Part shown: in pieces, positions 5,461 through 62,556 of the stretch
How positions within the stretch are numbered: position 1 is the stretch's first letter
Layout of the letters: every line of letters starts with the position of its first letter
Assembly (NCBI RefSeq): GCF_027923555.1
Contig: NZ_AP025523.1
Location: 1,302,001 to 1,366,000 of the forward strand
Direction of reading: 5' to 3'
DNA length: 64,000 nt
Source: Vulcanimicrobium alpinum
Lineage (GTDB): Bacteria > Vulcanimicrobiota > Vulcanimicrobiia > Vulcanimicrobiales > Vulcanimicrobiaceae
Translations under genes and position numbers: made by a program
Notes under the pieces: generated by a model
The model's database searches: none
What the model was told of the DNA's origin: nothing
Seen by the model: only the letters and a program-made list of their open reading frames with translations

Positions 5461-5879
5461 CGGCCTTCCGCTTTTTCTTGGATCCGGTCCTTCGGCATCG
5501 CGAGCGCATCGAACGTGTGCGGGCCGCTGAGCACGCGCACAAGGTCGCCGACCAGCGCGAATCGCAGCGTGTTCTCGACTGCCTCACAGCTAGCCGCGAA
5601 GCGGCGCGTACCGCACTTCTCGGCGGTCAGGGCAAGCTCGAAGCGATCAGCTTGCGTGCTACGTACACGTACCTCGACTACCTTGACCGCGTCATCGTCG
5701 CGGCGCGGCAACGGCTCGACGCTTGCGCAGCCGGAACGGACGCGTCACGGCACCATCTCGGCGCGGCTGTACGGGCTCGCAAGGCGCTCGAAACGCTCAA
5801 GGAACGGCGCCGCGAAGCCCACGATCTCGAGGCTGCGCTCGCCGAGCAGCGCGATCTCGACGAATTCAACAAGGTGTAG
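5457..5879 (+). CDS. fliJ: FliJ-like flagellar export protein
   Basis: A 140-residue, strongly helical and charged protein. It begins FRFFLDPVLRHRERIERVRAA and ends with the FliJ-type coiled-coil ALETLKERRREAHDLEAALAEQRDLDEFN. FliJ (about 140-150 residues) is a soluble antiparallel coiled-coil that joins the FliI ATPase ring to the FlhA gate of the flagellar type III export apparatus. Sequence conservation in this family is low, so the call rests on length, coiled-coil pattern, the C-terminal LKERR motif and the fliO-like gene that follows. The usual neighbour fliI is absent from the window. Confidence 0.78.
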   Translation: MTAFRFFLDPVLRHRERIERVRAAEHAHKVADQRESQRVLDCLTASREAARTALLGGQGKLEAISLRATYTYLDYLDRVIVAARQRLDACAAGTDASRHHLGAAVRARKALETLKERRREAHDLEAALAEQRDLDEFNKV

Positions 5880-5883
5880 GACC

Positions 5884-6231
5884 CTGCACGTCGTCGTCAC
5901 GTATCTCTGGGCTCTGGGGGTCGTCGCCCTGCTGCTGCTCGGTATGACCTCTGCCGTACGGTTGTTGCATCGCCGGCGCCTCGTCGCCTCGACAGGTAAA
6001 CGCCTCGTCACGGTCGTCGAGTCGACGTTCCTCGCGCCGAACGTGACCGTACACGTTATGAAGGTCGGCGACCGATACTACCTCGTAGGCGCCGGATCAG
6101 CGGGGCTCACCCGCATCGACGACGTTGAGGGCGAGGTCGTCGAAGCCTACATCCGATCGCAACGGATGGCGCTCGCAGGACAAGACGAGGCCGTCGCCCG
6201 CCTGATGCAAAGATTTCGCAAAGAACCGTGA
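5884..6231 (+). CDS. fliO: FliO-like flagellar biosynthesis protein
   Basis: About 115 residues with one N-terminal membrane span (LWALGVVALLLLGMTSAVRLL). A small cytoplasmic domain follows, containing RLVTVVESTFLAPNVTVHVMKVGDRYYLVGAGSAGLTRID, the FliO/YscJ-like beta-rich pattern. FliO assists assembly of the FliP-FliQ-FliR export gate. The start is uncertain: no ATG or GTG precedes the membrane span in frame. CTG at 5884 is the best full-length option, while ATG at 5944 would cut the span. The gene follows fliJ with a few bases between. Confidence 0.65.
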   Translation: MHVVVTYLWALGVVALLLLGMTSAVRLLHRRRLVASTGKRLVTVVESTFLAPNVTVHVMKVGDRYYLVGAGSAGLTRIDDVEGEVVEAYIRSQRMALAGQDEAVARLMQRFRKEP

Positions 6232-6462
6232 ACCGCGGACTCTCGAAGGACATCGCCTGACTGGGGCCCGGCCGCGCCGTCCCGTCTCGCCGAATTCATG
6301 CCGTGACGCGCGAGCCGCGGTGAAGCCTCGCTCTTCGTCTGCCGACAAGCAAAAGAAGGGGACGTACGCCGGGGCGGCATCTGCTCAAGACGTCTATCGA
6401 GATGAACAAGCGGCAGTCAAAGTACCAATGCCGCCGACCCGCCTGAGGAGCGCACACAACGG
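6232..6462. other. Spacer between fliO and cheY
   Basis: About 230 bases with no supported gene. GAGGAG at 6446-6451 serves as the ribosome-binding site of cheY. No good sigma-28 or sigma-70 promoter was found by eye, so cheY may be read through from upstream. Confidence 0.35.
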
Positions 6463-6828
6463 ATGTCGGGGAAACGCGTGCTCATCGTCGATGACGCCGT
6501 CGTCATGCGGATGATGATCAAGGGAATTCTGAGCAAGAACGGTTACGAGGTCGTCGGCGAGGCGCAGAACGGCGTGGAAGCCGTCGAAAAATACCGCGCG
6601 CTCACGCCGGACCTGGTGACCATGGATATGGTGATGCCGGAGATGGACGGCATCACCGCGGTCAAGCAGATCGTGGCGCAGGATCCGCAGGCGCGGATCA
6701 TCATGTGCACCTCGATGGGTCAGCAGGCGCTTGTGGTCGAGGCGATCCAGGCCGGCGCGAAGTCGTTCATCACCAAGCCGTTCCAACCGCCGAAGATCCT
6801 CGAGACGGTTCAGAAGGTGCTGGCATGA
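6463..6828 (+). CDS. cheY: Chemotaxis response regulator CheY
   Basis: A 121-residue single-domain receiver with every catalytic residue: acidic pair D10-D11, phospho-acceptor D55 (LVTMDMVMPEMDG), T83/S84, and K105 in ITKPF. With no output domain it acts as the diffusible signal that binds the flagellar switch. It begins a tight cluster with cheC (ATGA overlap), cheA and cheW. The nearby CheC phosphatase fits the CheY role rather than a stand-alone regulator. Confidence 0.93.
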   Translation: MSGKRVLIVDDAVVMRMMIKGILSKNGYEVVGEAQNGVEAVEKYRALTPDLVTMDMVMPEMDGITAVKQIVAQDPQARIIMCTSMGQQALVVEAIQAGAKSFITKPFQPPKILETVQKVLA

Positions 6829-7439
6829 ACTCCACCGCGCCGACCCTGAGCGAGATCCAGCGCGACGCGCTCAAGGAAGTCGGGAACATCGGCGCCGGCC
6901 ACGCGGCGACCGCGCTCTCGCAGCTGCTCAACACGACGGTGAAGCTTTCCGAGCCGACGATCGACGTGCTGAAGTTCCGCGACCTCTCCAGCCGCGTCGG
7001 GTCGGCCGACCGCAGCGTCGCCGCGCTGCACATGTACGTGCGCGGTGAGGCGCCGGGCCAGATGGTCGTGCTGTTCGATCGCGAGCAGGCCGCCGAGTTC
7101 GTCAACGTGTTCATCAAGCGGATCATCGGCGACATCCAGATCTTCGACTCGATCGTCGACTCGACGCTCAAGGAACTCGGCAACATCATCGCCGGATCGT
7201 ACCTGACCGCGCTGATCTCGCTCACCGGGAACAACCTCCTGCCGTCGGTCCCGACGCTCTCGTACGGGACGGTCCAGCAAGCGTTCCGAACGCTGATGTC
7301 GATCCTCCCCGATCAGGACGTCTTTCTGATCGAGTCGCAGTTTCTCGACAAGGACAAGGCGGTCTCGGGCCAGTTCATCCTGATCCCGGAGACGGGCTCG
7401 CTGCAGCCGCTGCTCTCGGTATTCGGCGTCAACGACTGA
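6825..7439 (+). CDS. cheC: CheY-P phosphatase CheC
   Basis: A 204-residue protein whose ATG overlaps the cheY stop. It carries two copies of the CheC/FliY active-site motif [D/S]xxxExxN: DALKEVGN near residue 15 and STLKELGN near residue 115, each followed by the expected glycine/alanine helix. CheC removes phosphate from CheY-P and in Bacillus/Thermotoga-type systems cooperates with CheD. CheD is not present in this window. Both active sites are intact. Confidence 0.92.
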   Translation: MNSTAPTLSEIQRDALKEVGNIGAGHAATALSQLLNTTVKLSEPTIDVLKFRDLSSRVGSADRSVAALHMYVRGEAPGQMVVLFDREQAAEFVNVFIKRIIGDIQIFDSIVDSTLKELGNIIAGSYLTALISLTGNNLLPSVPTLSYGTVQQAFRTLMSILPDQDVFLIESQFLDKDKAVSGQFILIPETGSLQPLLSVFGVND

Positions 7440-7448
7440 CACCCGACG

Positions 7449-8375
7449 ATGTCGGCGGATGATGTTTTTGACCGGGCGGAGTTCGTCCAATACTTCCGCG
7501 ACGAGACGGACGAACTGCTGCAGTCGATCGACGCCGATCTGCTGCGTCTCGATCGCTTGGTCGACTCCGGAACGGTCGACGGCGAGATCGTCGACTCGCT
7601 CTTCCGCGCGCTGCACACGATCAAGGGCAGCGCCGGGATGCTCGACTTCCGTCAGGTCCAGCAGATCGCGCACAAGCTCGAGAACGTCTTTGACCTGCTG
7701 CGCAAGGGTCGGATGCCGCTCACGGAGAGCGGCGTCAACCTGCTCTTCGAAGGCCGTGATGTGCTCACGGCCCTGGTGCGTTCGGCGGTCGGCGGACTCG
7801 AAGATCCGCCGGGCGTCGGCGCGTACGTCGAGCGGCTCGACGGCTTCGCCGCCGTCTACGATGCGACCGCGCAGGTGATCGACGGACACCGCACCGGCGA
7901 GCCGGTTCCGGAGTTCGAGGTCGAGATCGCGCGGATGCTCGCGCAGGCGCACGCCAAACGCCCCGCCGCCGACGTCCCCGCCGAGGAGGCGGTGGCCCTC
8001 GACGTCGCCGCCGCGCAAGCGGCCGTCGATGGGCTCTTCGCGGCTGCGCCGCAGACGCCGGCGCCGAAGCCCGCCAAAGTCGAAACGAAGAGCGTCGCGC
8101 GCAAGCCCGCGGCGAAGTCGCCGGCGAAGACGCCCGCGGCGAACCCGGTGCGCGCCCCGGTCGCCGCGCCCGAACCGCTCCGTACCGCGGCGGTGAAGAA
8201 CCAGACGATCCGCGTCGACATCGAGCGCCTCGACATGCTGCTCAACCTGGTCGGCGAGCTCGTCATCAACCGCACGCGCATCTCCGACATCGCCGCGACC
8301 CTCGGCCGCGAACTCGGCGGCCAGGGGAGTGCCCAGCATGCGCTCGCGGCCCTGGCGAAGGATCTCTCCGAATAG
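7449..8375 (+). CDS. CheA fragment 1: HPt and dimerisation domain
   Basis: This is the 308-residue open frame up to the premature TAG. It holds the phosphotransfer domain with the phospho-accepting H56, a lysine/alanine/proline-rich linker around residues 160-250, and the start of the dimerisation helices (RLDMLLNLVGELVINRTRI). Alone it would lack a kinase domain. Confidence 0.7.
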   Translation: MSADDVFDRAEFVQYFRDETDELLQSIDADLLRLDRLVDSGTVDGEIVDSLFRALHTIKGSAGMLDFRQVQQIAHKLENVFDLLRKGRMPLTESGVNLLFEGRDVLTALVRSAVGGLEDPPGVGAYVERLDGFAAVYDATAQVIDGHRTGEPVPEFEVEIARMLAQAHAKRPAADVPAEEAVALDVAAAQAAVDGLFAAAPQTPAPKPAKVETKSVARKPAAKSPAKTPAANPVRAPVAAPEPLRTAAVKNQTIRVDIERLDMLLNLVGELVINRTRISDIAATLGRELGGQGSAQHALAALAKDLSE

Positions 8376-8420
8376 TCGGCGCTGCTCGCGCGCACGACTA
8401 ACGAAATCCAGGAGAGCATC

Positions 8421-9185
8421 ATGAAGGTGCGCATGGTGCCGATCGGTCAGGTGTTCGACCGGTTCCCGCGGACGGTGCGCGATCTCGCGAAAGCGCGCGG
8501 CAAAGAGATCCACCTGACGATCTCCGGCGCCGAGACCGATCTCGACAAGACGATCGTCGACGAAGTCGGCGAGCCGCTGATGCACCTGATCCGCAACTGC
8601 GTCGATCACGGGATCGAGCCGCCGGACGTCCGCGAAGCGCGCGGTAAACCGCAGCACGGCACGATCGCGCTGAACGCCTATCACGAAGGCAATCAGGTGA
8701 TCATCGAGATCGCCGACGACGGCGGCGGGATCGATCTTGGCCGCGTGCGCGAGAAGGCGATCCGCATCGGCGTGATCGGCGAGTCCGATCGCCTCTCGGA
8801 TCGCGAGACGATCGAATTGATCTTCACTCCCGGCTTCTCGACCGCCGAACAGGTGACCGACGTCTCCGGCCGCGGCGTCGGGATGGACGTGGTGAAGAAG
8901 AACATCCGGCGGCTCAAGGGGATCTTCGACGTCGACTCGTCGCCCGGCGCGGGGACGACGTTCACGATGAAGCTGCCGCTGACGCTGGCGATCATCCAGG
9001 CGCTGCTGGTCCGCATCGCACGAACTGTACTCGATCCCGCTCGACGCGGTGATCGAGTCGCAGCGCATCGACGCCGCCGACGTCCGCACGGTACACGGCG
9101 GCGAGGTGATCACCCTGCGCGGTCAGGTCGTGCCGCTGATCCGCGTCGGCGAGTTCTTCCGGCTCGACGCGCCGCGCGACCCTGA
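8421..9185 (+). CDS. CheA fragment 2: histidine-kinase ATPase domain
   Basis: The frame resumes in phase with fragment 1, with an ATG at MKVRMVPIGQVFDRF. It holds the N, G1, F and G2 boxes of the CheA ATPase. After the shift at about 9018 the translation becomes arginine-rich noise, so the last ~55 residues are not CheA. Confidence 0.6.
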   Translation: MKVRMVPIGQVFDRFPRTVRDLAKARGKEIHLTISGAETDLDKTIVDEVGEPLMHLIRNCVDHGIEPPDVREARGKPQHGTIALNAYHEGNQVIIEIADDGGGIDLGRVREKAIRIGVIGESDRLSDRETIELIFTPGFSTAEQVTDVSGRGVGMDVVKKNIRRLKGIFDVDSSPGAGTTFTMKLPLTLAIIQALLVRIARTVLDPARRGDRVAAHRRRRRPHGTRRRGDHPARSGRAADPRRRVLPARRAARP

Positions 9186-52503: not shown

Positions 52504-55500
52504 TTGAGTTTTCGTTTTGACCAGCCCGCTTTGCGGGCTGGTCAAGGGTTCGTGACGAACACCGCACGGTTGACCCCGTACGCTCTGTGGCGATCGCGCC
52601 TGCCGGCGCAGATCGGCACGTGGTTTGCCCGCGATCTCACCCGCAACGCGCTCGCCCTCGTCGACGGGGGGCGCGTCTCGTTGCGATCCGTCGAACCGGC
52701 GCGCATCGAATCGGCGGTGAAGGACCGTGCGCCGGTGCAGACCGTCGTGGAGTGGTCGTCGGGGACCGGCCCGCAGGCGCTGCGGCCGATGTGCACGTGC
52801 GGCGCGACGGGCGTCTGCGAGCACGTCGTAGCGACGCTCGAAGTCGTCCGCACCGCCGAGGATCATGCGCTCCCGCCGGTGAGTGCCGATACGGCGGAGC
52901 CGGATCTCTCGTGGCTCCCCGACGGTGAGTTTGACGGCGCGCGGACGCGCGCGCGCGCCGTCTGGCCGGTGATCACCGTTGCGACCGGCGGCGCGATCGG
53001 CGGCGCGCTCTATCTCGACACGCCGCGGCTGCGCGGCGTGATCCGCGACGCCGACGCGATCCTGGCGATGATGGATCAGACGCCCTCCGACGACTGGGAC
53101 GACGTCGATCGCTCGCTGCTGCGGGATGAAGCGGTGCAGGAAGCGTTCGGCGCCCGCGCCTCGACGAAGGCGCTGGCGCGCGCGATGTTCCGGCTCGCGC
53201 GTCATCCGCGGCTGAGGATCGACGATGCGCCCGCCGAAAATCGGCATCCCGCGGAACTGCCGCCGTTCGCGGTGGAGACGCGCGGCGTGCGCCTGCGCGC
53301 GAGACGGATGGGCTCGGCCTTCGCGCCGGTCCTCGAGACGCCCGACGGTTCACGCGTCTCGCCGGCGGATGCGCTCGTCCTCGACGGGCCGCCGGTCTGG
53401 ATGATCGCCGAACGCACCGCGTTTCTGCTCGACGGCGGATTCGACGCGCGCAAGGTGATCGCAGCGGCACGCGCGGTGCCGTCGACCAACGGCGAGACGC
53501 ACGGCACGCCGTCGATGCGCGCAATCGCGAAGGCGGCGCCGTTCCTGCCGGCCGACGAACGCGCGGCGCTCGGCGTCGTCGACGCGCAGCTTCCGGGGAT
53601 GGTGATTCGCGCCGCGTGGCGCGACGGCGCACTGCTGACGCGCCTCGGGTTCGTCGATCGCGCGACCGGCGCGTACGTCGCCTACAACCCGCTCGGCGCG
53701 GTGACCGCGAGCGACGGGCGGTTCGTACGGTTCCCGCCCGATGTCGCCCGCGGTTTCTCGCGCCGCTTCCTCGATGCCGGCTTCGTGCCGCGCGGGAGCG
53801 ACGGATTCGCGCTGCACGACGCGGATCGTGCTGCCGAGGTGGTGCGCGACCTGTGGCCCGGATGGGACGACGCCGAGGTGCGGCTCGACGATTCGCTGCT
53901 CGCGCTCACCAACGGCGGCAACGTCGACGTTTCGGTGCAGGCGACCGCGACCGAGAGCGGCGACTGGTTCGATCTCGACGTCTCGGTGTTCGTCGGCGGC
54001 GGCGAGCCGCTCACCCGCGACGAACTGCGCGCGCTGCTCGGCGGAAAGGGACGCTTCGCGGAAGTGCGCGGACAGCTCGTCGACGTCGGCGATCTGCGCT
54101 CGCGGCAGAATCTGCTTTCGGAACTGAACGATCGGCGGCGCACGGGACTCGCCTCGCTCGTCGCGATGCGCGACGAACTGCACGAAGCGTTCGGCGACGT
54201 AGCGCTGCCGGACGAAGTCGAGCGGATTCGCGAGCGCCTGCGCAACTTCGAGGGGATCGAAGAAGTGTCGCCTCCGGACGCGCTCGTGCTGCCGCTGCGC
54301 GACTACCAGCGTCGCGGCTTGGATTTCCTCGCGTACCTCTCGTCGTTCCGTTTCGGCGGCATTCTCGCAGACGATATGGGTACTGGAAAGAGTCTTCCCG
54401 TTTCGATGCTGGTGCTGACGCCGACCGGATGGCGCCGTTTCGGCGATCTTTGCGTCGGCGACGAAGTCATGGGGCGCGACGGGATGCCGCATCGTGTGGT
54501 AGGCGTCTATCCGCAGGGTGTACTGCCTGCGTATCTTGTAATGTTCGGCGACGGTACGTCGTTGCCTTGCTCCGACGATCATCTGTGGGCGGTGAATTCG
54601 GCCGTTCGCAAGAAACGCGGGCGTCCTGATCGCGTGCTGACGACGCGCGAGATTCGCGAACATCTGCACGATGCGGCGGGAAATGCGCGACACTACATTC
54701 CCGTCGCAGCTCCAATGCATTTTGCGCTGCACGAACCGCTCCCGATCGATCCCTATCTTTTGGGATGCTTACTCGGAGACGGCGGACTTTCCGGACGGCA
54801 GCTCCGCTTCACGATCGCGGATGCGGAAAGTCGCGCCGCGGTGAATACGCTGCTGCCGACGGGCACCGAGTTGGTGCCGCTGCAACGCTACGATTATGCG
54901 ATTCGATCGACACATGGTGCGAATCCGGTCGCTGCATCGCTGAACGATCTCGGCGTGCTTGGGCTGACGTCTTCGCGGAAGTTTGTGCCGACCGCTTACA
55001 AGTTCGCGTCGATCTCCGATCGCCTCGCGATGCTGCAAGGCTTGATGGACACGGACGGCACGGTCGATCATCGGACCGGGTGTGCGGAGTTTACGACGAC
55101 GTCCGATCAACTCGCGACCGACGTCGAGTTCCTGGTGCGCTCGCTGGGCGGCGTTGCTCGGCGCACATACAAAGCTGCGCCGAAGTACGTGTACAAGGGC
55201 GAAAACCGGATCGGCAAGCCGGCGTATCGCGTGGGCATCGAGCTTCCGCCGGAGTACGTCCCGTTCCGGCTCGAGCGCAAGCTCGCGCGCTTCGAGCCGC
55301 GCACGAAATATCAGCCGGTGCGCGCGATCGTGGATGTGGTTCCGGACGGCGAGTGCGAGATGCAGTGCATCGCGGTCGACGCGCCCGATCAGTTGTACGT
55401 GATGTGGGACTTCATCGTCACCCACAACACCTCGCAGTTGATCGCGCACGTCGCGAAGCGCAAACAAGACGAGGGCGAGTCGCCGATCCTGGTGATCGCG

Positions 55501-56736
55501 CCGACCTCGGTCACGCACACGTGGGAGAACGAGATCAAGAAGTTCGCCCCGAGCTTGCGCACCTTGCGCCTGCAGTCCGGGAGCGACCGCGCCGCGAAAT
55601 ATGAGACGATCCACGACTTCGACGTCATCATCACGTCGTACGCATTGGCGCGGCTCGACGCGCACCACCTCGAACGGTTCCGCTTCCGCACGCTCGTCCT
55701 CGACGAGGCGCAGAACGCGAAGAACCCGTCCTCGCAGATCGCGAAGGTCGTGCGCGGGCTGCAGGCCGATCACCGTCTGGCTCTTACCGGGACGCCGGTG
55801 GAAAACTCGCTGCGCGATCTGTGGGCGATCTTCGGCTTCGTCGAGCCAGGGCTGCTTGGGTCCGAGACGTCGTTCCGGCGGCGGTTCGAGAACCCGATCG
55901 CCGACGGCGACGAGCGTGCCGCCGCGGCGCTGCGCTCTCGGCTCGAACCGTTCGTGCTGCGCCGCACGAAAGAAGACGTTGCGCGCGAACTGCCCGAACG
56001 CACGGAGGCGGTGATCGAGTGCGAGCTGAGTCCGCTGCAGCGGCGCCTCTACCGCGGGATCGCCGAGGCCGCGCGCCGCGACGTGCTGGCAAAGATCGAC
56101 GACGAGGGGACGGAAGCGGCGACGGTGCACGTTCTCGCGGCGCTCACGCGCCTGCGTCAAGTCTGCGCGCACCCGGGGCTGCTCGTGCCGGAGTATCTCG
56201 AGGAGCCGGAGGCGAGCGGGAAGTTCGACGCGTTCCTGGAGACGATCGACGAGATCCTCGACGGCGGCCACAAGGTGCTCGTGTTCAGCGCCTTCGCGTC
56301 GATGCTCAAGATCATGCGCACGTCGCTCGACAAGCGCGACGTGGCGTACGGCTACCTCGACGGATCGACGAAGGACCGCGACCGGCAAGCCGAGGTCGAG
56401 CGTTTCATGAGCGACGGCGGGCCGCCGGTGTTCCTCTGTTCGCTCAAGGCGGGCGGCGTCGGGCTCACGCTGACCGCGGCCGACTATGTGGTGCTCTACG
56501 ATCCGTGGTGGAATCCCGCGGTCGAACGCCAGGCGATCGACCGCACGCATCGCATCGGACAGGTGCGTCCGGTGACGGCGTACCGGATGGTCACCGCCGG
56601 ATCGGTCGAGGAGAAGATCCGCGCGCTCGCCGAGCGCAAAGCGGCGCTGTCGAAGGCCGTCGTTAAAGCCGACAGCGCCGTCGCGAAGACGCTCACGCGC
56701 GAAGACCTGGCCTTCCTCTTCAGCGATCCCGAATAG
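52504..56736 (+). CDS. SWI2/SNF2-type helicase with SWIM zinc finger, interrupted by an intein
   Basis: A 1410-residue precursor. Residues ~96-110 form a SWIM zinc-binding motif (CTCGATGVCEHVVATL). The helicase core has motif I split by the intein (MGTGK then TSQLIAH), motif II LVLDEAQNAKN, ALTGTPVENSLRDLW, and in the C-terminal lobe FLCSLKAGGVGLTLTAADYVVLYDPWWNPAVERQAIDRTHRIGQ. After splicing the protein would be ~1064 residues. Such proteins remodel protein-DNA or RNA-polymerase complexes. The start is uncertain: TTG at 52504 with a well-placed AGGAAGG, or GTG at 52552. A perfect 12-base hairpin lies between the two. Confidence 0.9.
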   Translation: MSFRFDQPALRAGQGFVTNTARLTPYALWRSRLPAQIGTWFARDLTRNALALVDGGRVSLRSVEPARIESAVKDRAPVQTVVEWSSGTGPQALRPMCTCGATGVCEHVVATLEVVRTAEDHALPPVSADTAEPDLSWLPDGEFDGARTRARAVWPVITVATGGAIGGALYLDTPRLRGVIRDADAILAMMDQTPSDDWDDVDRSLLRDEAVQEAFGARASTKALARAMFRLARHPRLRIDDAPAENRHPAELPPFAVETRGVRLRARRMGSAFAPVLETPDGSRVSPADALVLDGPPVWMIAERTAFLLDGGFDARKVIAAARAVPSTNGETHGTPSMRAIAKAAPFLPADERAALGVVDAQLPGMVIRAAWRDGALLTRLGFVDRATGAYVAYNPLGAVTASDGRFVRFPPDVARGFSRRFLDAGFVPRGSDGFALHDADRAAEVVRDLWPGWDDAEVRLDDSLLALTNGGNVDVSVQATATESGDWFDLDVSVFVGGGEPLTRDELRALLGGKGRFAEVRGQLVDVGDLRSRQNLLSELNDRRRTGLASLVAMRDELHEAFGDVALPDEVERIRERLRNFEGIEEVSPPDALVLPLRDYQRRGLDFLAYLSSFRFGGILADDMGTGKSLPVSMLVLTPTGWRRFGDLCVGDEVMGRDGMPHRVVGVYPQGVLPAYLVMFGDGTSLPCSDDHLWAVNSAVRKKRGRPDRVLTTREIREHLHDAAGNARHYIPVAAPMHFALHEPLPIDPYLLGCLLGDGGLSGRQLRFTIADAESRAAVNTLLPTGTELVPLQRYDYAIRSTHGANPVAASLNDLGVLGLTSSRKFVPTAYKFASISDRLAMLQGLMDTDGTVDHRTGCAEFTTTSDQLATDVEFLVRSLGGVARRTYKAAPKYVYKGENRIGKPAYRVGIELPPEYVPFRLERKLARFEPRTKYQPVRAIVDVVPDGECEMQCIAVDAPDQLYVMWDFIVTHNTSQLIAHVAKRKQDEGESPILVIAPTSVTHTWENEIKKFAPSLRTLRLQSGSDRAAKYETIHDFDVIITSYALARLDAHHLERFRFRTLVLDEAQNAKNPSSQIAKVVRGLQADHRLALTGTPVENSLRDLWAIFGFVEPGLLGSETSFRRRFENPIADGDERAAAALRSRLEPFVLRRTKEDVARELPERTEAVIECELSPLQRRLYRGIAEAARRDVLAKIDDEGTEAATVHVLAALTRLRQVCAHPGLLVPEYLEEPEASGKFDAFLETIDEILDGGHKVLVFSAFASMLKIMRTSLDKRDVAYGYLDGSTKDRDRQAEVERFMSDGGPPVFLCSLKAGGVGLTLTAADYVVLYDPWWNPAVERQAIDRTHRIGQVRPVTAYRMVTAGSVEEKIRALAERKAALSKAVVKADSAVAKTLTREDLAFLFSDPE
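52518..52544 (+). repeat. Perfect 12-base-pair hairpin after clpC / at the helicase start
   Basis: TGACCAGCCCGC and GCGGGCTGGTCA flank a TTT loop. A T-run precedes it rather than follows it on the + strand, so it is not a standard intrinsic terminator in either direction. It may be a repeat element or an RNA structure that controls clpC decay or helicase translation. Confidence 0.5.
54391..55428 (+). other. Intein with LAGLIDADG homing endonuclease, inserted in the helicase Walker A motif
   Basis: 346 residues lie between GTGK and T of Walker A. Splice residues are Ser1 (SLPVSMLVLTPTGWRRFGDL) at the N-terminus, with block B likely at GDGTSLPCSDDHLW, and His-Asn at the end (FIVTHN) followed by Thr as +1. 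Two DOD endonuclease motifs are visible: LLGCLLGDGGLS and LQGLMDTDGTV. The codons look less GC-biased than the host gene, suggesting horizontal arrival. All key residues appear present, so splicing is likely. Confidence 0.93.
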
Positions 56737-56739
56737 CGT

Positions 56740-57438
56740 CTAGGACGCGCGCGACGACCCCGGCGCCGGCATCGCCGGCGGCGACGGAACGGTGGACGGC
56801 GCGGGCGGTGCCGGCGGAGCGGCGCGGCGCGGCGGGATCGGCGGGACGCCGCGGATCCACACTCGCGTGCACGGACCGCCCTCGATCTGCAGGCGGCGCA
56901 TGCTGCGCTCCGCCTCGCGCAGCGCGCGTTCGACTTGCGGGCCGACGTCCGGGATCGGCGGCAGCACCGGGAGCGGTGGGATCGCGCCGAGCTCCGCGCC
57001 GTCGCGGTCGCCCATGCGGGCCCACCCCCGGCCGCGCACGTCGAATGCGTGCGGATCGGTGCCGACGATCGCCGTGCCGGAGAGGTCGACGCCGGTCATC
57101 CGGACGCCGTCGATCTTGGCGCGCGCGAACGACGTGCGGCGAAAGCGCACGCCTTCGAAGCGCGCGTTCCGCAGGTCTGCGCCGTCGAATCTCGCGCCGG
57201 CGAGGTCGGCGCCGACGAAGCGCGCGCCGCTCAGTTTGGCGTTCGAAAAATCGACGTCGCGCAGATCGCTGCCGACGAAGCGCAGATCGTGCAGATCGCG
57301 GCCGCGCAGATCCTTGGGGAACGTGCAGCCGACGCATTGATCGATCAACCGGCGGGTGAGGTCATCGTCGGCGCGCGCGGGGACGGCGCCGAGCAGGAGG
57401 GTCGTCAACGCGGCCGCGCAGAGCAGGGTGCGTACCAT
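56740..57438 (-). CDS. Exported pentapeptide-repeat protein with CxGC motif (third structural gene)
   Basis: A 232-residue protein with a signal peptide (MVRTLLCAAALTTLLLGAVPARA). The motif C35-V-G-C38 comes next, then about 17 pentapeptide repeats (DLRGRDLHDLRFVGSDLRDV, FVGADLAGARFDGADLRNARF) to residue ~125. A proline-rich C-terminal half (PPLPVLPPIPDVGP, PPIPPRRAAPPAPPAP) follows. It is the last gene of the BlaI-M56 operon, 12 bases after the previous pentapeptide gene. The SNF2 gene is convergent to it. Function unknown; pentapeptide helices usually make protein-protein or DNA-mimic surfaces. Confidence 0.8.
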   Translation of the reverse strand: MVRTLLCAAALTTLLLGAVPARADDDLTRRLIDQCVGCTFPKDLRGRDLHDLRFVGSDLRDVDFSNAKLSGARFVGADLAGARFDGADLRNARFEGVRFRRTSFARAKIDGVRMTGVDLSGTAIVGTDPHAFDVRGRGWARMGDRDGAELGAIPPLPVLPPIPDVGPQVERALREAERSMRRLQIEGGPCTRVWIRGVPPIPPRRAAPPAPPAPSTVPSPPAMPAPGSSRAS

Positions 57439-57450
57439 CGTCCTTCTCCC

Positions 57451-58221
57451 TTATGCCGGCGCCAGCGCGCCGGTCAGATCGGCGTGCGCGTCGCCGGTGA
57501 GTTCTTGCCGCGTGACGGTGCGGCAGGTCGCCGATGCCTCGCCTCGATCGTGCGTGCAGAAGCGCGCGCTGCGCAGGTCCAGACCGTGGAGGTCGACGCC
57601 GCGCAGGTCGGTGCACACGGTACGGCGTTCGGCTTCGCCGCCGTCCCAGGCGGCGGTATTCTCGCCGCAGAGGATCGCGTCGCCGATGACGACGCCAGAC
57701 AGGCGAGCGTCCCGGAGGTTTGTGCTCAGCAGGTTCGCGCCGCGCAGGTCGGCGCGCGAGAGGTCGCTGCCGGCGGCGTTCGCGCCGACCAGCCGTGCCT
57801 CGCGCAGGTTCGTGCCCGCAAGCTTCGCGTCGCGCAGGTTCGCGCCGACCAGCCGGCTTGCGTGCAGATCGGCGTTCGTCAGGTCGAGGTCGTGAAACGC
57901 GCAGCCGGTGCAGTCGCGCAGGACCGCGCGCCCGGTCTCGGTGCGCATGTCGGCCTGCGCGACGCTCGCGCCGACGAACCGTATCCCGTCGACCGCCGCG
58001 TGCGCGAACGACGTGCCGCGCAGGCGGACGCCGACGAAACGTGCGTTGCGAAGGTCCGCGTCGTCGAAGCGCGTCCCCTCGAGATCGGCGCCGGTGAACG
58101 TCGCGCCATTCACGTTGCTGCGGCGGAAATCGACGTCGCGCAAGTCGGTGCCGGTGAAGCGCAGGCCGTGCAGATCGCGCCCGTGCAGATCGCGCGGCAG
58201 CGTACACCCGACGCGCAGCAC
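57451..58221 (-). CDS. Pentapeptide-repeat protein (second structural gene), signal peptide possibly frameshifted off
   Basis: 256 residues in two pentapeptide blocks. The first starts at VGCTLPRDLHGRDLHGLRFTG and the second at C104-T-G-C107 (CTGCAFHDLDLTNADL). A Cys-rich C-terminal third follows, with CGENTAAWDGG and FCTHDRGEASATC. The frame has no signal peptide. However, ATG at 58285 opens MIRPFAVALTAAFVVGLGAV, a good signal peptide in a neighbouring frame that ends where this one begins. One inserted or lost base near 58225 would join them and give an exported ~278-residue protein. Confidence 0.72.
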   Translation of the reverse strand: MLRVGCTLPRDLHGRDLHGLRFTGTDLRDVDFRRSNVNGATFTGADLEGTRFDDADLRNARFVGVRLRGTSFAHAAVDGIRFVGASVAQADMRTETGRAVLRDCTGCAFHDLDLTNADLHASRLVGANLRDAKLAGTNLREARLVGANAAGSDLSRADLRGANLLSTNLRDARLSGVVIGDAILCGENTAAWDGGEAERRTVCTDLRGVDLHGLDLRSARFCTHDRGEASATCRTVTRQELTGDAHADLTGALAPA

Positions 58222-58285
58222 GCCCGACGGCGCCGAGACCGACGACGAACGCTGCGGTGAGCGCGACTGCGAACGGTCGAATCAT
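58222..58285 (-). pseudogene. Out-of-frame signal-peptide segment of the second pentapeptide gene
   Basis: ATG at 58285 encodes a basic start and a hydrophobic stretch (IRPFAVALTAAFVVGLGAVG) typical of a Sec signal. Continuing in this frame gives arginine-rich noise, while the pentapeptide domain continues in the other frame. It is most simply read as the true start of the gene at 57451, separated by a single-base indel. Confidence 0.45.
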
Positions 58286-58328
58286 TCCGATGCTCTTTTG
58301 GTAACTATGAAACTAGGTGTTCGCGGCA

Positions 58329-58362
58329 AAAAAAAGAGCGCGCGCATCATCGCTCGAGCGAA
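58329..58362 (-). terminator. Probable intrinsic terminator at the end of the M56-pentapeptide gene
   Basis: Read on the minus strand, a GAGCG...CGCTC stem with a GC-rich loop overlaps the stop codon. It is followed by a run of eight T residues (58329-58338). It may terminate part of the transcript, so that the two downstream pentapeptide genes are expressed at a lower level. Confidence 0.5.
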
Positions 58363-60461
58363 CTCCCGCGCATCGTGAACCCCGCGGTCTTTGCGCCGCT
58401 GAGGTTGACGCCATTTATGTCGCAGCCGACGAACACTGCGCCGGTGAGATCGGCGCCGCTCAGATTCGCCCCCGACAAATCGGCGCCGCTGAAGCGGACG
58501 CCGCTGAGGTTCGCGTCGCGCAGATCGGCGCCGTTGAAATTCGCACCGCTCAGCGCGATCCCGTGCAGGTCCTGACCGCGCAAGTCCATTCGCGTGAAGT
58601 CGCAGCCGGAACACGTCGCGATCGCGTCCCGCAATTGCGTGCCGCGCAGTCCGGCCGTTCGCAGCGAGACGCCGACCAGCTTCACGTTCTCGAGGTGCGC
58701 GCCGTCGAGGTTGGCGCCGCTCAGCGAGACGCCGGTGAGCACCGCACCGCGCAGATCTGCGCCTTGCAGGTTCGCGTCGGTCAGCGACGTGCCGAGCAGG
58801 TGCGCGCCGGCAAGGTTCGCGCCCGAGAGATCGGCGCCGCGCAGATCGTAGCCGGTCAGCGTCAGATCGTGCAGATCCATCCCGCGCAGGTCGGCGCCGC
58901 GCAACGAACAGCCCACGCACGATGCGATCAGCTCGCGCGTCGGCTTCTCGCCGCCCAGCGAGCGGTGCGCACGCCGGTTCGCGAGCCCTTCGGCGGCGAT
59001 CGACGCCTGCGCTGCGGCGAGCGACTGTTTGACGATCTTTGCGAGCGGGATGTCGACGCCACCGTCGATGTGCGCGAGCGACGACGGAACGAACGCAGGC
59101 GGGGCGATCGGCGCCTCTGGAGCGATCGGCTTCGCGGGCGCGAGCGGCGCCGCCGACGGAGCAGCCGTCTCTGCGATTCGGGGCAGACGCGGGAACGGGA
59201 GCAGCGCCGGCGTATCGACGATACGGTAGATCACCCGCGTCTGCGTCGTCGGAGCGGCCGCGGATGCTGCGGATCGATGCACGCGCGGAGGCGTCGCCGC
59301 GTGCGCCGGGGCGGCGGCGTGCACGATCAGGCGCACGGCTTCGTGGTGCGCGCCGGCGGTCTCGGACGCCCCCGCGACCGTCGTCGAAGGGGGAGCCGGC
59401 ACTTCGAGCGCCGGCGCGCTCGTCGCGACGAGCGCGACCGCGGCGATCCCGGCCGCGGCCGCGCCGAGCGCGGCGGCCGGCGAGCAGTGCAGGCGCGTAC
59501 GATTCTTGTCGAGCAGCTGCTCGATGCGGACGCTGATCTGCTTGCGCGTTAGCAGCGCACCCGGCGCGACGACCGCGTGTTCCGGCATCCGCATCTCGCG
59601 CGCGAGAGGCCACAGCGAGGTCGCGTATTCGTGCGTCGCGCCGGTCTTTTCGACGACCGCGTCGTCGGACGCGATCTCGCGCTCGAGCGCGATGCGGCGG
59701 CCGATCAGCCACACGAGCGGATTGAACCAGAACAGCCGCTCGATCGTGCGCTGGACGAGGTTCGTCCAGTCGTCGTAGCGGCGCAGGTGCGCGTGTTCGT
59801 GCAGCACGAGCGGCTCGATCGCGGAGAGACCGTCGGCAGTCGCCAGTTCGGTCGGGATCAGGATGACGGGACGGCCGAATCCGATCGCCACGGGCGTTTC
59901 GGTCTCGTACGAGAGCCGCAGATAGATCTCGCGTCCGGCGGTCGCCTCGGTGAGCCACGGCAACTCGTCGGCGAGCGTGCCGTCGAGCGGGCTCGAGCGT
60001 TTCTTCAGCCCGCGCACGCGCAGGACGCTCGCGAACAGACCGCCGATCCCGACGAGCGCGCCGATCAGCCACACGGCGACGAGCGCCAGCGCAACGTCGC
60101 GTGAGAGTTTCGGCGTCCAGCCGACGGAAGGTGCGGACGAAGCGGATCCGGCGCGGTGCGCGACGGGCGGTTCGGGGATTGCGGGGAACGGCGCCGTCGC
60201 CTCGGCGACGCTCGCGAGCACCGAGGCGGGCATCGCGAGACGCGTCTCGGCGTGCGGCTGCGCGCGCATCGCGCTGACGCCGACGCCCGCGAGCGGCATC
60301 AGCGCCGTCGCAACGAGCGCGGTCGTCCACAGCGCGTGGCGGGTGGTCGCCGTCAGCGCGAGAACGCGCGTTGCAACGAAGACGCCGAGCGCGAGCACCG
60401 CTCCCAGAACGATGCCGGCAGCGATCGCGCGAAGGGCGACGTCGACGACCGCCTCGAGCAT
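58347..60461 (-). CDS. BlaR1-like M56 membrane metalloprotease fused to a pentapeptide-repeat domain
   Basis: A 704-residue protein. Residues 1-62 hold two membrane spans and residues ~121-147 a third. The M56 zinc-protease site is H221-E-H-A-H225, with ALEREIASDDAVVEKTG supplying the distal Glu, and a fourth span lies at ~330-348. A long Ala/Pro linker (350-465) leads to C515-V-G-C518 and about 20 pentapeptide repeats. A second C617-S-G-C620 and ~16 more repeats follow. In BlaR1/MecR1 the corresponding outer part is a penicillin-binding sensor; here it is a pentapeptide helix. The BlaI-like repressor lies two bases upstream. Expected role: sense a periplasmic cue and cleave the repressor. 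The cue is unknown. Confidence 0.88.
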   Translation of the reverse strand: MLEAVVDVALRAIAAGIVLGAVLALGVFVATRVLALTATTRHALWTTALVATALMPLAGVGVSAMRAQPHAETRLAMPASVLASVAEATAPFPAIPEPPVAHRAGSASSAPSVGWTPKLSRDVALALVAVWLIGALVGIGGLFASVLRVRGLKKRSSPLDGTLADELPWLTEATAGREIYLRLSYETETPVAIGFGRPVILIPTELATADGLSAIEPLVLHEHAHLRRYDDWTNLVQRTIERLFWFNPLVWLIGRRIALEREIASDDAVVEKTGATHEYATSLWPLAREMRMPEHAVVAPGALLTRKQISVRIEQLLDKNRTRLHCSPAAALGAAAAGIAAVALVATSAPALEVPAPPSTTVAGASETAGAHHEAVRLIVHAAAPAHAATPPRVHRSAASAAAPTTQTRVIYRIVDTPALLPFPRLPRIAETAAPSAAPLAPAKPIAPEAPIAPPAFVPSSLAHIDGGVDIPLAKIVKQSLAAAQASIAAEGLANRRAHRSLGGEKPTRELIASCVGCSLRGADLRGMDLHDLTLTGYDLRGADLSGANLAGAHLLGTSLTDANLQGADLRGAVLTGVSLSGANLDGAHLENVKLVGVSLRTAGLRGTQLRDAIATCSGCDFTRMDLRGQDLHGIALSGANFNGADLRDANLSGVRFSGADLSGANLSGADLTGAVFVGCDINGVNLSGAKTAGFTMRGSSLER

Positions 60462-60463
60462 GG

Positions 60464-60844
60464 TTATTTGTCCTTGGCGCGGTCCAACAGTTCGCGCAGA
60501 CGCGCGAGTTCGCTGTCGTCGACCGCTTCGGATTCGAGCAGGTTCAGCACCAATTCGCGCGGCGATCCGTCGAAAAAGCGTGAGAGCACGTGCTGGACGA
60601 CGCTGCGCTGCGCCTCGTCGCGCGCGACGACCGCGCGGTAGATGAACGCGCGCCCGGCCGCCTTGTGACGGACGTAGCCTTTTTGTTCCAGGATGCGCAT
60701 CGTCGTGAGCACCGTGTTGTACGCGAGCGGGGGATCGCCGATCGCGTCGACCACGTCGGCGACGCTCGACTCACCGCGGTCCCACAGGACCTGCATGAGC
60801 CGGTACTCGGCCTCCGTTAAGGTCGGCGACTTCTTGCGGGGCAT
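60464..60844 (-). CDS. BlaI/MecI/CopY-family transcriptional repressor
   Basis: A 126-residue winged-helix repressor: LTEAEYRLMQVLWDRGESSVADVVDAIG, the recognition helix PLAYNTVLTTMRILEQKGYV, the wing KAAGRAFIYRAVV, and a dimerisation tail FFDGSPRELVLNLLESEAVDDSELARLRELLD. In the bla and mec systems this repressor is cleaved when the membrane protease is activated. Its partner M56 gene starts two bases downstream. It probably represses its own operon from the promoter at 60851-60879. Confidence 0.93.
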   Translation of the reverse strand: MPRKKSPTLTEAEYRLMQVLWDRGESSVADVVDAIGDPPLAYNTVLTTMRILEQKGYVRHKAAGRAFIYRAVVARDEAQRSVVQHVLSRFFDGSPRELVLNLLESEAVDDSELARLRELLDRAKDK

Positions 60845-60850
60845 ATCCGC

Positions 60851-60879
60851 ACGCTATCACGCGGCCGCCGGGCTGTCAA
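60851..60879 (-). promoter_or_regulatory. Promoter of the BlaI/M56/pentapeptide operon
   Basis: On the minus strand TTGACA (60879-60874), a 17-base spacer and TAGCGT (60856-60851), preceded by TGA as an extended -10. The expected start site falls on or within a base or two of the blaI-like ATG (60844), so the mRNA may be leaderless. The promoter begins immediately after the stop codon of the upstream sigma-factor gene. Confidence 0.55.
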
Positions 60880-61419
60880 CTATGGATTTAAGTTAGAATC
60901 ATCGCAAGCAGCCGCCCGGCGAAGCAGCGCTTCGCGCTGGGCCGACGTCCCGCTTGCTGCTGCCGCGCGCCGATACGCGTCCGCGGCGCCTCGGGCGTCG
61001 CCGTTGCGCCGCAACAGGTCGGCGTGGGCGGCATGGAGCGGCGCGTAACCGGCGAGCGCGGCGTCGCCGAGCAGCGGCCGCAGCAGCGCTAACCCGGAAG
61101 CCGGCCCGTCCGCCATCGCGATCGCGACCGCGCGGTTGAGTTCGACGACCGGCGAAGGCGCCATCGCGCCGAGGACGCCGTAGAGCCGCGCGATCTGCGG
61201 CCAGTCGGTCGCCTCGAACGACGGCGCGCGCGCGTGCAGCGCGACGATCGCCGCCTGCACCTGATACGGTCCGGGCGCGCGGCGGGCGAACGCCGCGTCG
61301 AGGATTGCGAGCCCTTCATCGATGCGCGTGCGGTCCCAGCGGCCGCGGTCCTGCGCGTCGAGCGCGACGATCCCCGCGCCGTCGATGCGCGCGGGCGTAC
61401 GCGCGTGATGGAGCAGCAT
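60880..61419 (-). CDS. ECF42 sigma factor, C-terminal reading frame
   Basis: 179 residues covering the end of DUF6596 and the TPR-like tail (SGLALLRPLLGDAALAGYAPLHAAHADLLRRNG). In known ECF42 factors this extension is needed for activity. Confidence 0.5.
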   Translation of the reverse strand: MLLHHARTPARIDGAGIVALDAQDRGRWDRTRIDEGLAILDAAFARRAPGPYQVQAAIVALHARAPSFEATDWPQIARLYGVLGAMAPSPVVELNRAVAIAMADGPASGLALLRPLLGDAALAGYAPLHAAHADLLRRNGDARGAADAYRRAAAASGTSAQREALLRRAAACDDSNLNP

Positions 61420-62125
61420 CAGCGCGAGGAGCCCCGCCGCCTCGGCGTTGCGCGGGCATCAGTCCGGCGACCAGACGCGCGAGGCGGATCGCTTCGTCGC
61501 ACAACTCGGCGCGCACCGGGCGATCGCCCGACGTCGCCGCGTAGCCTTCGTTGAAGACGAGATAGATCACCGCGAGCACGGTCGCCAGACGATCGGCGAG
61601 TTCGTGCGCTGCAGGGATGCGGAACGGGATCCCCGTTGCCTTGACGCGGCGCTTCGCGCGCACGATCCGCTGCGCCATCGTCGCTTCGCCGACGAGAAAC
61701 GCGCGCGCGATCGCGCCGGTCTCCAAACCGGCGACGCAGCGCAGCGTCAGCGCAACGCGTGCGTCCGGTGCGAGCGCCGGATGCGCGCACAAGAAGATGA
61801 GTTCGAGACGGTCGTCGTGCATGATCTCCTCGTCCTCGCTCGGATCCTCGTGCGCGATGCGGTCGGAGACGTACGCGCGGTCGCGAAGGTCGCGCGCCGC
61901 CTCGCGGCGCAGCCGGTCGATCGCTTTGCGCCGCGCGCTGAGCATCAGCCACGCGGACGGGTTCGGCGGAACGCCCTCGCGCGGCCACGCGAGGGCTGCC
62001 GCCGCGAAGGCGTCTTGGGTAGCGTCTTCCGCGAGCGCCAAGTCGCCGACGCGGCGCATCATCGCCGCCACGATCTGCGCCCAGTCCGCGCGCGCGGCGC
62101 GGGCCAGTGCGTCGGTCGCGTTCAG
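60880..62125 (-). pseudogene. ECF42-type RNA polymerase sigma factor (sigma domains plus DUF6596), frameshifted
   Basis: Read across one frameshift this is a ~410-residue ECF sigma factor. Region 2 is WAQIVAAMMRRVGDLALAEDATQDAF with AWLMLSARRKAIDRLRR, and region 4 is TLRCVAGLETGAIARAFLVGEATMAQRIVRAKRR. The long C-terminal DUF6596/TPR-like domain includes VIYLVFNEGYAATSGD, RWDRTRIDEGLAILD, PGPYQVQAAIVALHA and SPVVELNRAVAIAMADGP. An extra base near 61456 shifts the frame after LVAGLMPA. The start is uncertain (a CTG at 62125). ECF42 genes are known to sit next to DGPF/YCII genes, as here. Confidence 0.78.
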
Positions 62126-62197
62126 CCGACCGGGACCGACATGACCGGCCGGATTTCGAGGACGTTCTGCTTCGCGTCGGGCATCTTCGCGGCCCAA
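61316..62197 (-). CDS. ECF42 sigma factor, N-terminal reading frame
   Basis: The uninterrupted 5' frame of the sigma gene with regions 2 and 4 and the first part of DUF6596. It runs into arginine-rich noise after the frameshift near 61456. The first ~24 residues overlap the YCII gene and are probably not translated. Confidence 0.5.
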   Translation of the reverse strand: MGREDARREAERPRNPAGHVGPGRLNATDALARAARADWAQIVAAMMRRVGDLALAEDATQDAFAAAALAWPREGVPPNPSAWLMLSARRKAIDRLRREAARDLRDRAYVSDRIAHEDPSEDEEIMHDDRLELIFLCAHPALAPDARVALTLRCVAGLETGAIARAFLVGEATMAQRIVRAKRRVKATGIPFRIPAAHELADRLATVLAVIYLVFNEGYAATSGDRPVRAELCDEAIRLARLVAGLMPAQRRGGGAPRADAAPSRAYARAHRRRGDRRARRAGPRPLGPHAHR

Positions 62198-62457
62198 TCG
62201 AGCGCGGCGTCGAGATCCGGCACCTCGATGATGTAGTAGCCGATCAGCAGCTCTTTCGTCTCGGCGAATGGGCCGTCGGTGACGAGACGCTTCCCATCGC
62301 GAAGCCGCAGGGTCGTCGCGGTCTCGCCGCCGTGCAACGGTTCCCCGGAGACGAATGCTCCGGCCTTGCGCATCTCCTCGGTGTAGGTGAACCAGGCATC
62401 GTAGGGCTCGTTCGACTCGAGTTTCGGATCGGCATAGATTAGCAGCATGTACTGCAT
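62122..62457 (-). CDS. DGPF/YCII-domain protein, partner of the ECF42 sigma factor
   Basis: A 111-residue YCII-like protein (MQYMLLIYADPKLESN) with the defining DGPFAETKELLIGYYIIEV motif and a GAFVSGEPLHGGETATTLRL segment. The ATG has an AGGGAGAA ribosome site. DGPF proteins are repeatedly found beside ECF42 sigma factors and are often their targets. Biochemical activity is unknown. Confidence 0.9.
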   Translation of the reverse strand: MQYMLLIYADPKLESNEPYDAWFTYTEEMRKAGAFVSGEPLHGGETATTLRLRDGKRLVTDGPFAETKELLIGYYIIEVPDLDAALDWAAKMPDAKQNVLEIRPVMSVPVG

Positions 62458-62556
62458 GGCGTTCTCCCTGAGCGTTGAGCGTGGCCGCTCCGCGGCGGCG
62501 ACACCCACCCTACGCCGCGGGGCCGTCGAATTCGACAGCATGCGCTCGATATCCGG

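Follow-up and report, generated by a model that had tools for sequence, protein, structure and literature searches.

Gene content and layout of the locus

The minus strand of the window (the whole 64-kb stretch of DNA that was analysed) carries, in this order, a blaI-type repressor gene, a gene for an M56 protease with an outer pentapeptide-repeat (PPR) domain (M56-PPR), and two companion PPR genes, here called companion A and companion B (Table 1). The sequence-only reading of this stretch had placed a BlaI-type repressor two bases before an M56 protease; the family assignment (PF03965, E = 7e-34) and the 2-base gap between the two genes were both confirmed. Eremiobacterota, the phylum from which the DNA comes, is a soil phylum about which little is known. 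Its first cultivated member, Vulcanimicrobium alpinum WC8-2, is Gram-negative and has an outer membrane covered with LPS; the genome is a closed chromosome of 3,508,363 bp obtained from PacBio and Illumina reads (PMC9758169). The window covers positions 1302001-1366000 of this chromosome. When this 3.5-Mb genome was searched for the pentapeptide family PF00805, all matches (11 of 11) fell inside the M56-PPR, companion A and companion B open reading frames (ORFs).

Table 1. Coordinates of the genes and of predicted sites in the operon.
Feature	Position	Strand	Evidence
Promoter: -35 TTGACA (60874-60879), spacer 17 bp, -10 TAGCGT (60851-60856)	60851..60879	-	Sequence
Predicted BlaI operator CTTAAATCCATAGTTG, over the -35 box	60877..60892	-	Sole zero-mismatch match in the genome; PWM 17.1
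BlaI-type repressor, 126 aa	60464..60844	-	PF03965 E=7.1e-34, residues 9-121; upstream in 63/67 M56-PPR loci
M56 protease with outer PPR domain, 704 aa	58347..60461	-	PF05569 E=5e-35, PF00805 E=8e-44
M56/BlaR1 protease domain, aa 20-315	59517..60404	-	PF05569 E=4.7e-35; Foldseek 8exr
HEHAH zinc site, aa 221-225	59787..59801	-	H221, E222 and H225 invariant in 27 sequences
Predicted two-module PPR outer domain, aa 509-700	58362..58937	-	AlphaFold2, block pLDDT mostly 88-98; hhalign to companions
First CxGC (CVGC, aa 515-518)	58908..58919	-	C515 and C518 invariant (27 sequences)
Second CxGC (CSGC, aa 617-620)	58602..58613	-	102 residues past the first; invariant (27 sequences)
Second operator-like palindrome CACCTAGTTTCATAGTTA, before companion A	58302..58319	-	PWM 10.7, second best
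Companion A, disrupted	57451..58285	-	Signal peptide from ATG 58285; repeats 57451-58221 in another frame
Companion B, 232 aa	56740..57438	-	In-frame signal peptide; CVGC; a single PPR module; tail rich in proline

A BlaR1-like protease and its repressor

Beta-lactam sensing is the best-known role of BlaI/M56 pairs. The present pair shares with BlaI-BlaR1 and MecI-MecR1 a BlaI-family repressor that adjoins an M56 protease; the Penicillinase_R domain (PF03965) spans the full length of the repressor, and the protease has an M56 domain with the HExxH and ExxxD motifs, four membrane helices and an outer C-terminal domain. The second protease motif, E262xxxD266, follows the HEHAH site; across the 27 sequences neither E262 nor D266 varies. 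Four hydrophobic segments marked by hydropathy (residues 12-30, 44-62, 125-143 and 329-347) match the four helices of an AlphaFold2 model made with 27 relatives (2-33, 38-67, 121-155 and 328-348; M56 fold, mean pLDDT 77), which bears out the BlaR1 topology that had been claimed for this protein; the zinc site claimed with it is intact. The distribution of flanking lysine and arginine residues (K+R counts of 2 in the loop between helices 1 and 2, 5 in residues 147-160 and 0 at the N-terminus) agrees with the N-out, C-out topology reported for BlaR1 (PMC9834060). With Foldseek, the model matched BlaR1 (8exr; TMt 0.64, 2.9 Å) and also PPR solenoids. Because the PPR part follows helix 4, it is predicted to lie outside the membrane, as the outer domain of BlaR1 does, and not in the cytoplasm.

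Where BlaR1 and MecR1 carry a C-terminal penicillin-binding sensor domain, the C-terminal part of M56-PPR matches PPR families only, and the NCBIfam model blaR1_generic scored 67 bits against a cut-off of 400. M56-PPR is therefore no beta-lactam BlaR1, although a BlaR1-like mode of action is well supported.

Measured against what we take to be the S. aureus BlaI sequence, the cleavage site of the repressor in the window would fall at LVLN↓L, a position that is conserved and reads mostly LxLR↓L in other PPR-type loci. This candidate thus lies where BlaI itself is cut, directly by BlaR1, between Asn101 and Phe102 (PMC9834060).

The outer domain is predicted to form two PPR modules

The sequence-only reading had described the outer domain as a single helix of ~36 repeats in place of a beta-lactam-binding domain. 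The replacement stands, but the single helix does not: in the AlphaFold2 model, a disordered linker (about residues 350-500) leads to two PPR modules of beta-helical fold (roughly residues 515-604 and 617-700), each with a short cap helix ahead of it (509-514 and 610-615) and each opening with a CxGC motif (C515/C518 and C617/C620). The usual distance between the two CxGC motifs is 102 residues; two CxxC motifs at a spacing of 102 or 103 occur in 53 of 67 fusions, and none of five cysteines (C515, C518, C617, C620 and C680) varies among 27 sequences with identities down to 29%. If unpaired, the fifth cysteine would leave room for an intermolecular bond.

Alignment of the sensor PPR domain with the exported companions by hhalign gave a probability of 100 over 194 columns (39% identity), with both CxGC motifs in register, which supports the assignment of the outer domain as a tethered homologue of the exported PPR proteins. 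Ranked by likeness to a sensor PPR domain, the companion at its own locus came 15th of 49 at the median, which is no special resemblance, and pairwise sensor-companion co-evolution or recent local duplication is therefore unsupported.

The companion PPR genes

Two exported PPR companions had been proposed for this locus. Companion B fits the proposal, being intact with its signal peptide in frame, but the signal peptide of companion A is out of frame. Aligned with the intact companion A genes of four sister species (L036, L037, L039 and L041), the gene in the window lacks 32 bp at 58217/58218, exactly between the signal peptide and the first CxGC, and the deletion removes the first Cys of that motif. 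Companion A of V. alpinum WC8-2 has probably lost its export or become a pseudogene. The break could conceivably stem from a sequencing error, but with a hybrid assembly this is unlikely.

Forty-nine companions were extracted. Nearly all have a hydrophobic N-terminal stretch, and in most of them a signal-peptide-like start is followed directly by CxGC. Eight cysteines are invariant across 17 two-module companions, and the C-terminal segment of this type is conserved. A structural model of a companion showed the two-module plan together with a signal helix and a C-terminal cap, and superposed best on the lumenal pentapeptide-repeat protein (PRP) 2f3l (1.6 Å over 119 columns, TMt 0.70).

Conservation and spread of the gene set

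Of 99 genomes of the family, 76 gave a match, and in the loci that were fetched BlaI, M56-PPR and a PPR gene follow one another in this order. Among 105 distinct M56 ORFs, 67 were of the PPR type. A BlaI gene lies upstream of 63 of the 67 M56-PPR ORFs, and the remaining four ORFs begin at a contig end. A downstream PPR gene follows 46 of the 63 M56-PPR ORFs with at least 1 kb of sequence, as compared with 0 of 35 non-PPR M56 ORFs (Fisher p = 5e-14, uncorrected for kinship); at the other 17 of the 63 loci an adjacent PPR gene is absent. After correction for kinship the companion association was not significant, the M56 tree offering three well-supported independent contrasts and hence no power; an average of 1.3 of the three pointed in the expected direction and none against it. 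The fusion was also present in a second family of the class. It is thus not peculiar to this assembly, and both BlaI and PPR neighbours recur; of the three findings that would have refuted the sequence-only reading, the third being a cytoplasmic PPR part, none was obtained. An assembly artefact was rejected on the same ground, that the fusion occurs throughout the family.

We conclude that the BlaI/M56-PPR set is a real, conserved variant of BlaI/M56 signalling. The earlier claim of a new signalling system holds in part: the BlaI/M56 unit, the BlaR1 topology, the PPR outer domain and the conservation with exported PPR partners all stand. The accompanying remark that no system of such layout had been described agrees with our searches for the combination of M56, PPR and BlaI, which returned no relevant paper; as far as the searchable literature goes (open-licence papers, preprints excluded), the variant is undescribed.

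A single origin of the fusion was rejected, since the PPR label needs six changes on the M56 tree, at least three of them on well-supported branches; by this tree the PPR domain appears to have been gained or lost more than once, at least three times in all. Outside the phylum, an M56-PPR fusion was found in one Gloeobacterales MAG only (ES-bin-141; L151, positions 1-1866), in which no BlaI gene was seen, as the contig begins at the ORF. L151 likewise has an M56 domain followed by a long PPR domain, but it lacks CxGC and occupies another position on the M56 tree; it represents either a separate origin or a misbinned contig. Related M56 proteins occurred in only 3 of 292 cyanobacterial genomes. 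A full-query match was absent from plasmids, and inspection by eye of the matches listed for 199 Acidobacteriota genomes found no M56-PPR pairing within one ORF.

Predicted operator, promoter and regulon

The palindrome YTAANNNNTTAG overlaps the -35 box before blaI. A consensus derived from its half-sites, CAACTAAATATTTAGTTG, occurs upstream of blaI in most loci, overlapping the -35 TTGACA, and in many loci a second copy of the palindrome lies just past the -10 box; sister-species loci show the same promoter arrangement. A palindromic operator at the repressor's own promoter, as is usual for the BlaI family, is thus predicted in most loci as CTAAnnnnTTAG over the -35 box. Within the window's genus, a gap of about 6 bases separates the -10 box from the blaI ATG, which makes a leaderless blaI mRNA probable.

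Across the 99 genomes YTAANNNNTTAGTTGAC occurred 96 times, a count in which a few palindromic sites figure on both strands, against 6 occurrences of the reversed control. When the V. alpinum genome was scanned by pattern with CTTAANNNNNTAGTTG, the one zero-mismatch match was the blaI promoter. The 64-kb window was also scanned with a position weight matrix (PWM) built from the relatives' sites, the window's own sites being excluded; the blaI promoter ranked first and the spacer before companion A second (Table 1), and the next site scored 3.8. Several members of the window's clade share the spacer site before companion A. It scored over 10 in L036, L037 and L039-L046, as compared with 99% of shuffled spacers below 7.1.

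The predicted regulon was sampled from 30 fetched operator sites, none of them before a BlaI gene. Six precede unlinked genes for exported CxGC PPR proteins (L236, L253, L254, L255, L256 and L259) and about seven precede genes for DUF5916-type exported proteins, two of these confirmed by Pfam and the rest assigned by resemblance; DUF4097 proteins, an S9 peptidase and unassigned ORFs make up the remainder. The DUF5916-type genes with the operator (L241, L244, L247, L248, L250, L252 and L260) come from several Eremiobacterota genomes. The same palindrome also stands at paralogous BlaI/M56 pairs, which makes the assignment of a given target to a given repressor ambiguous. In one clade (L050, L056, L070 and L090), a short conserved ORF with a TRVRLP motif and a C-terminal GWGP lies between the operator and blaI.

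Proposed mechanism and alternative explanations

The best overall explanation, and in our judgement the likely one, is a self-regulated proteolytic switch of the BlaI/BlaR1 type with an exported PPR output and a tethered PPR sensor. Its parts differ in strength: a switch with an exported PPR output is very likely, the PPR domain is probably the sensor, and sensing through a shared partner or through the companion itself is a tentative proposal, albeit one that could well be right. BlaI would bind the palindrome that covers its own operon's -35 box, and genes for exported CxGC-type PPR proteins, some within the operon and others unlinked to it, would be among those under its control. The M56 protease is predicted to face the cytoplasm, with the disordered linker carrying the two-module PPR domain outside the membrane. 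By analogy with BlaR1, the activated protease would cut BlaI at the conserved LVLN↓L and so lift repression; given that BlaR1 cuts BlaI, and given this candidate site, the simplest reading is a switch of the BlaR1 kind whose outer domain is new. The PPR domain may sense by comparison with the exported PPR protein, the two binding one another or sharing one envelope component as a partner. Loss, damage or occupation of that partner would set off the protease, conceivably under outer-membrane, metal or thiol stress on the CxGC pairs, and fresh exported PPR protein would restore the resting state.

Such surveillance, directed at the exported PPR protein or at a shared partner, is the reading we favour over a ligand sink or a passive spacer (see below), by the precedent of YjbI from Caulobacter. 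YjbI is a secreted PRP with two pairs of conserved Cys; it silences two envelope-stress pathways, and zinc stress leads to its proteolytic removal, after which it is replenished (PMC12864828). The protein of 2G0Y, another crystal form of the 2f3l protein, has been named a YjbI ortholog (PMC12864828). A more specific form, self-referential envelope surveillance in which the protease gauges the exported PPR protein via its own tethered copy and adjusts production through BlaI proteolysis, is possible, though we hold it loosely.

The alternative closest to the bla system is that the sensor PPR domain and the exported PPR proteins bind one external compound, such as an antibiotic, a peptide or a metal, the sensor serving as the trigger while the exported copies shield the envelope or soak the compound up. 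Such an arrangement would fit the sensor-to-effector homology (hhalign probability 100), which has the same form as that between the BlaR1 sensor and class D beta-lactamase. Orphan exported PPR genes under the same operator would also fit, as would the invariant CxGC pairs, which could bind metal or form disulfides. However, the cysteines would equally suit structural disulfides like the Cys39-Cys42 bond of Rfr23 (PMC8145042); we regard this alternative as rather doubtful.

That the PPR domain is a rigid spacer, a dimerisation or an anchoring element, with the membrane helices or the outer loop doing the sensing, is unlikely. Several M56 paralogues of the class that lack a recognisable outer domain do stand behind BlaI (L060, L084, L086 and L087), and such sensing could also hold for M56 proteases that have no penicillin-binding domain, for instance PetP of the copper-linked BlaI/BlaR1-like pair PetRP (PMC7896320). 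Five invariant cysteines and a 102-residue spacing maintained at ~30% identity nevertheless exceed what a spacer would need, and the co-occurrence with homologous exported proteins does so as well.

BlaI-induced protection of gyrase or another cytoplasmic target, in the manner of Qnr or MfpA, was rejected as very improbable: the PPR fold is common to all of these proteins and the NCBIfam Qnr and MfpA models match weakly, but the sensor falls far short of the cut-offs (49 bits against 240 for Qnr, 63 against 360 for MfpA), the companions have signal peptides, the sensor PPR domain is predicted to lie outside, and in local superposition the companion comes closest to lumenal PRPs. Least credible is chance adjacency of PPR genes that are simply abundant, which we likewise rejected, for although some relatives have large numbers of them (many PPR-only matches), all PPR matches of the V. 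alpinum genome lie in the operon, no non-PPR M56 ORF of 35 has a PPR neighbour, and the operator precedes unlinked PPR genes too. An anti-phage system, like the toxin defence suggested in the sequence-only reading, was unsupported by PADLOC-DB 2023, in which no listed system gave a match of note and BlaI alone gave a weak Csa3 match (E = 4e-4).

Comparison with known systems

Apart from the outer domain, the M56-PPR set differs from BlaI-BlaR1 and MecI-MecR1 in its predicted operator, CTAAnnnnTTAG, and predicted outputs, which are exported PPR and other envelope proteins. The companions resemble YjbI in having a secretion signal and conserved Cys pairs, companion A of V. alpinum being the exception; two-module companions have eight invariant cysteines as against four in the YjbI type. 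A charged C-terminal tail in the outer membrane is a further mark of the YjbI type; in the companions, the C-terminal segment is conserved. YjbI acts via the two-component systems UzcRS and ChvGI, and no protease fusion or BlaI link was described there (PMC12864828). The cyanobacterial copper switch PetR-PetP is alike in pairing a BlaI-like regulator with a BlaR1-like protease that answers to a signal other than a beta-lactam, but it differs in that signal, copper, and in its targets, plastocyanin and cytochrome c6, with no PPR proteins named in its regulon (PMC7896320).

Possible exchange of outer domains among M56 relatives

At the L059 locus (7925-9144 and 5628-7925, minus strand), an exported DUF4097 toastrack gene is found with BlaI and with an M56 protein whose outer domain is a DUF2807 toastrack. 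The DUF4097 gene precedes blaI, and the sensor's outer domain resembles the co-regulated exported protein. Three close kin of L059 (L042, L043 and L057) keep the DUF4097 gene and have a PPR outer domain. The difference between the DUF2807 domain of L059 and the PPR domain of its kin suggests that outer domains have been swapped among M56 relatives, and a correspondence in which the sensor mirrors the product may be a general rule for M56 systems. Two HEAT-type M56 proteins (L078 and L139), with their neighbours judged by the ORF list, do not obviously follow it.

The present set combines a conserved BlaI/M56 pair, a clear operator and a predicted regulon with a wholly different outer domain, and the phylum that carries it can be studied in a cultivated member. 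It also ties exported pentapeptide proteins to a signalling pathway. To our knowledge, the biochemical role of exported pentapeptide proteins is mostly unknown. That envelope role, and the signals of non-beta-lactam M56 proteases, can now be put to the test, and the gene set suggests a new means by which cells may keep watch on their own envelope.

Flanking ORFs

On the plus strand, an ORF of 1410 aa (52504-56736) encodes an SNF2-type helicase with an intein-like insert at Walker A (DDMGTGKS-LPVSML ... VTHN-TSQLIAHV), and its NCBIfam matches include an intein-prone helicase model. On the other side of the operon, an ECF sigma factor ORF (61316-62197) and an overlapping ORF in another frame (60880-61419, minus strand) appear to be one gene split by a frameshift, adjoined by a DGPF/YCII-like protein (62122-62541); with companion A, the split gene would make two nearby frame disruptions.
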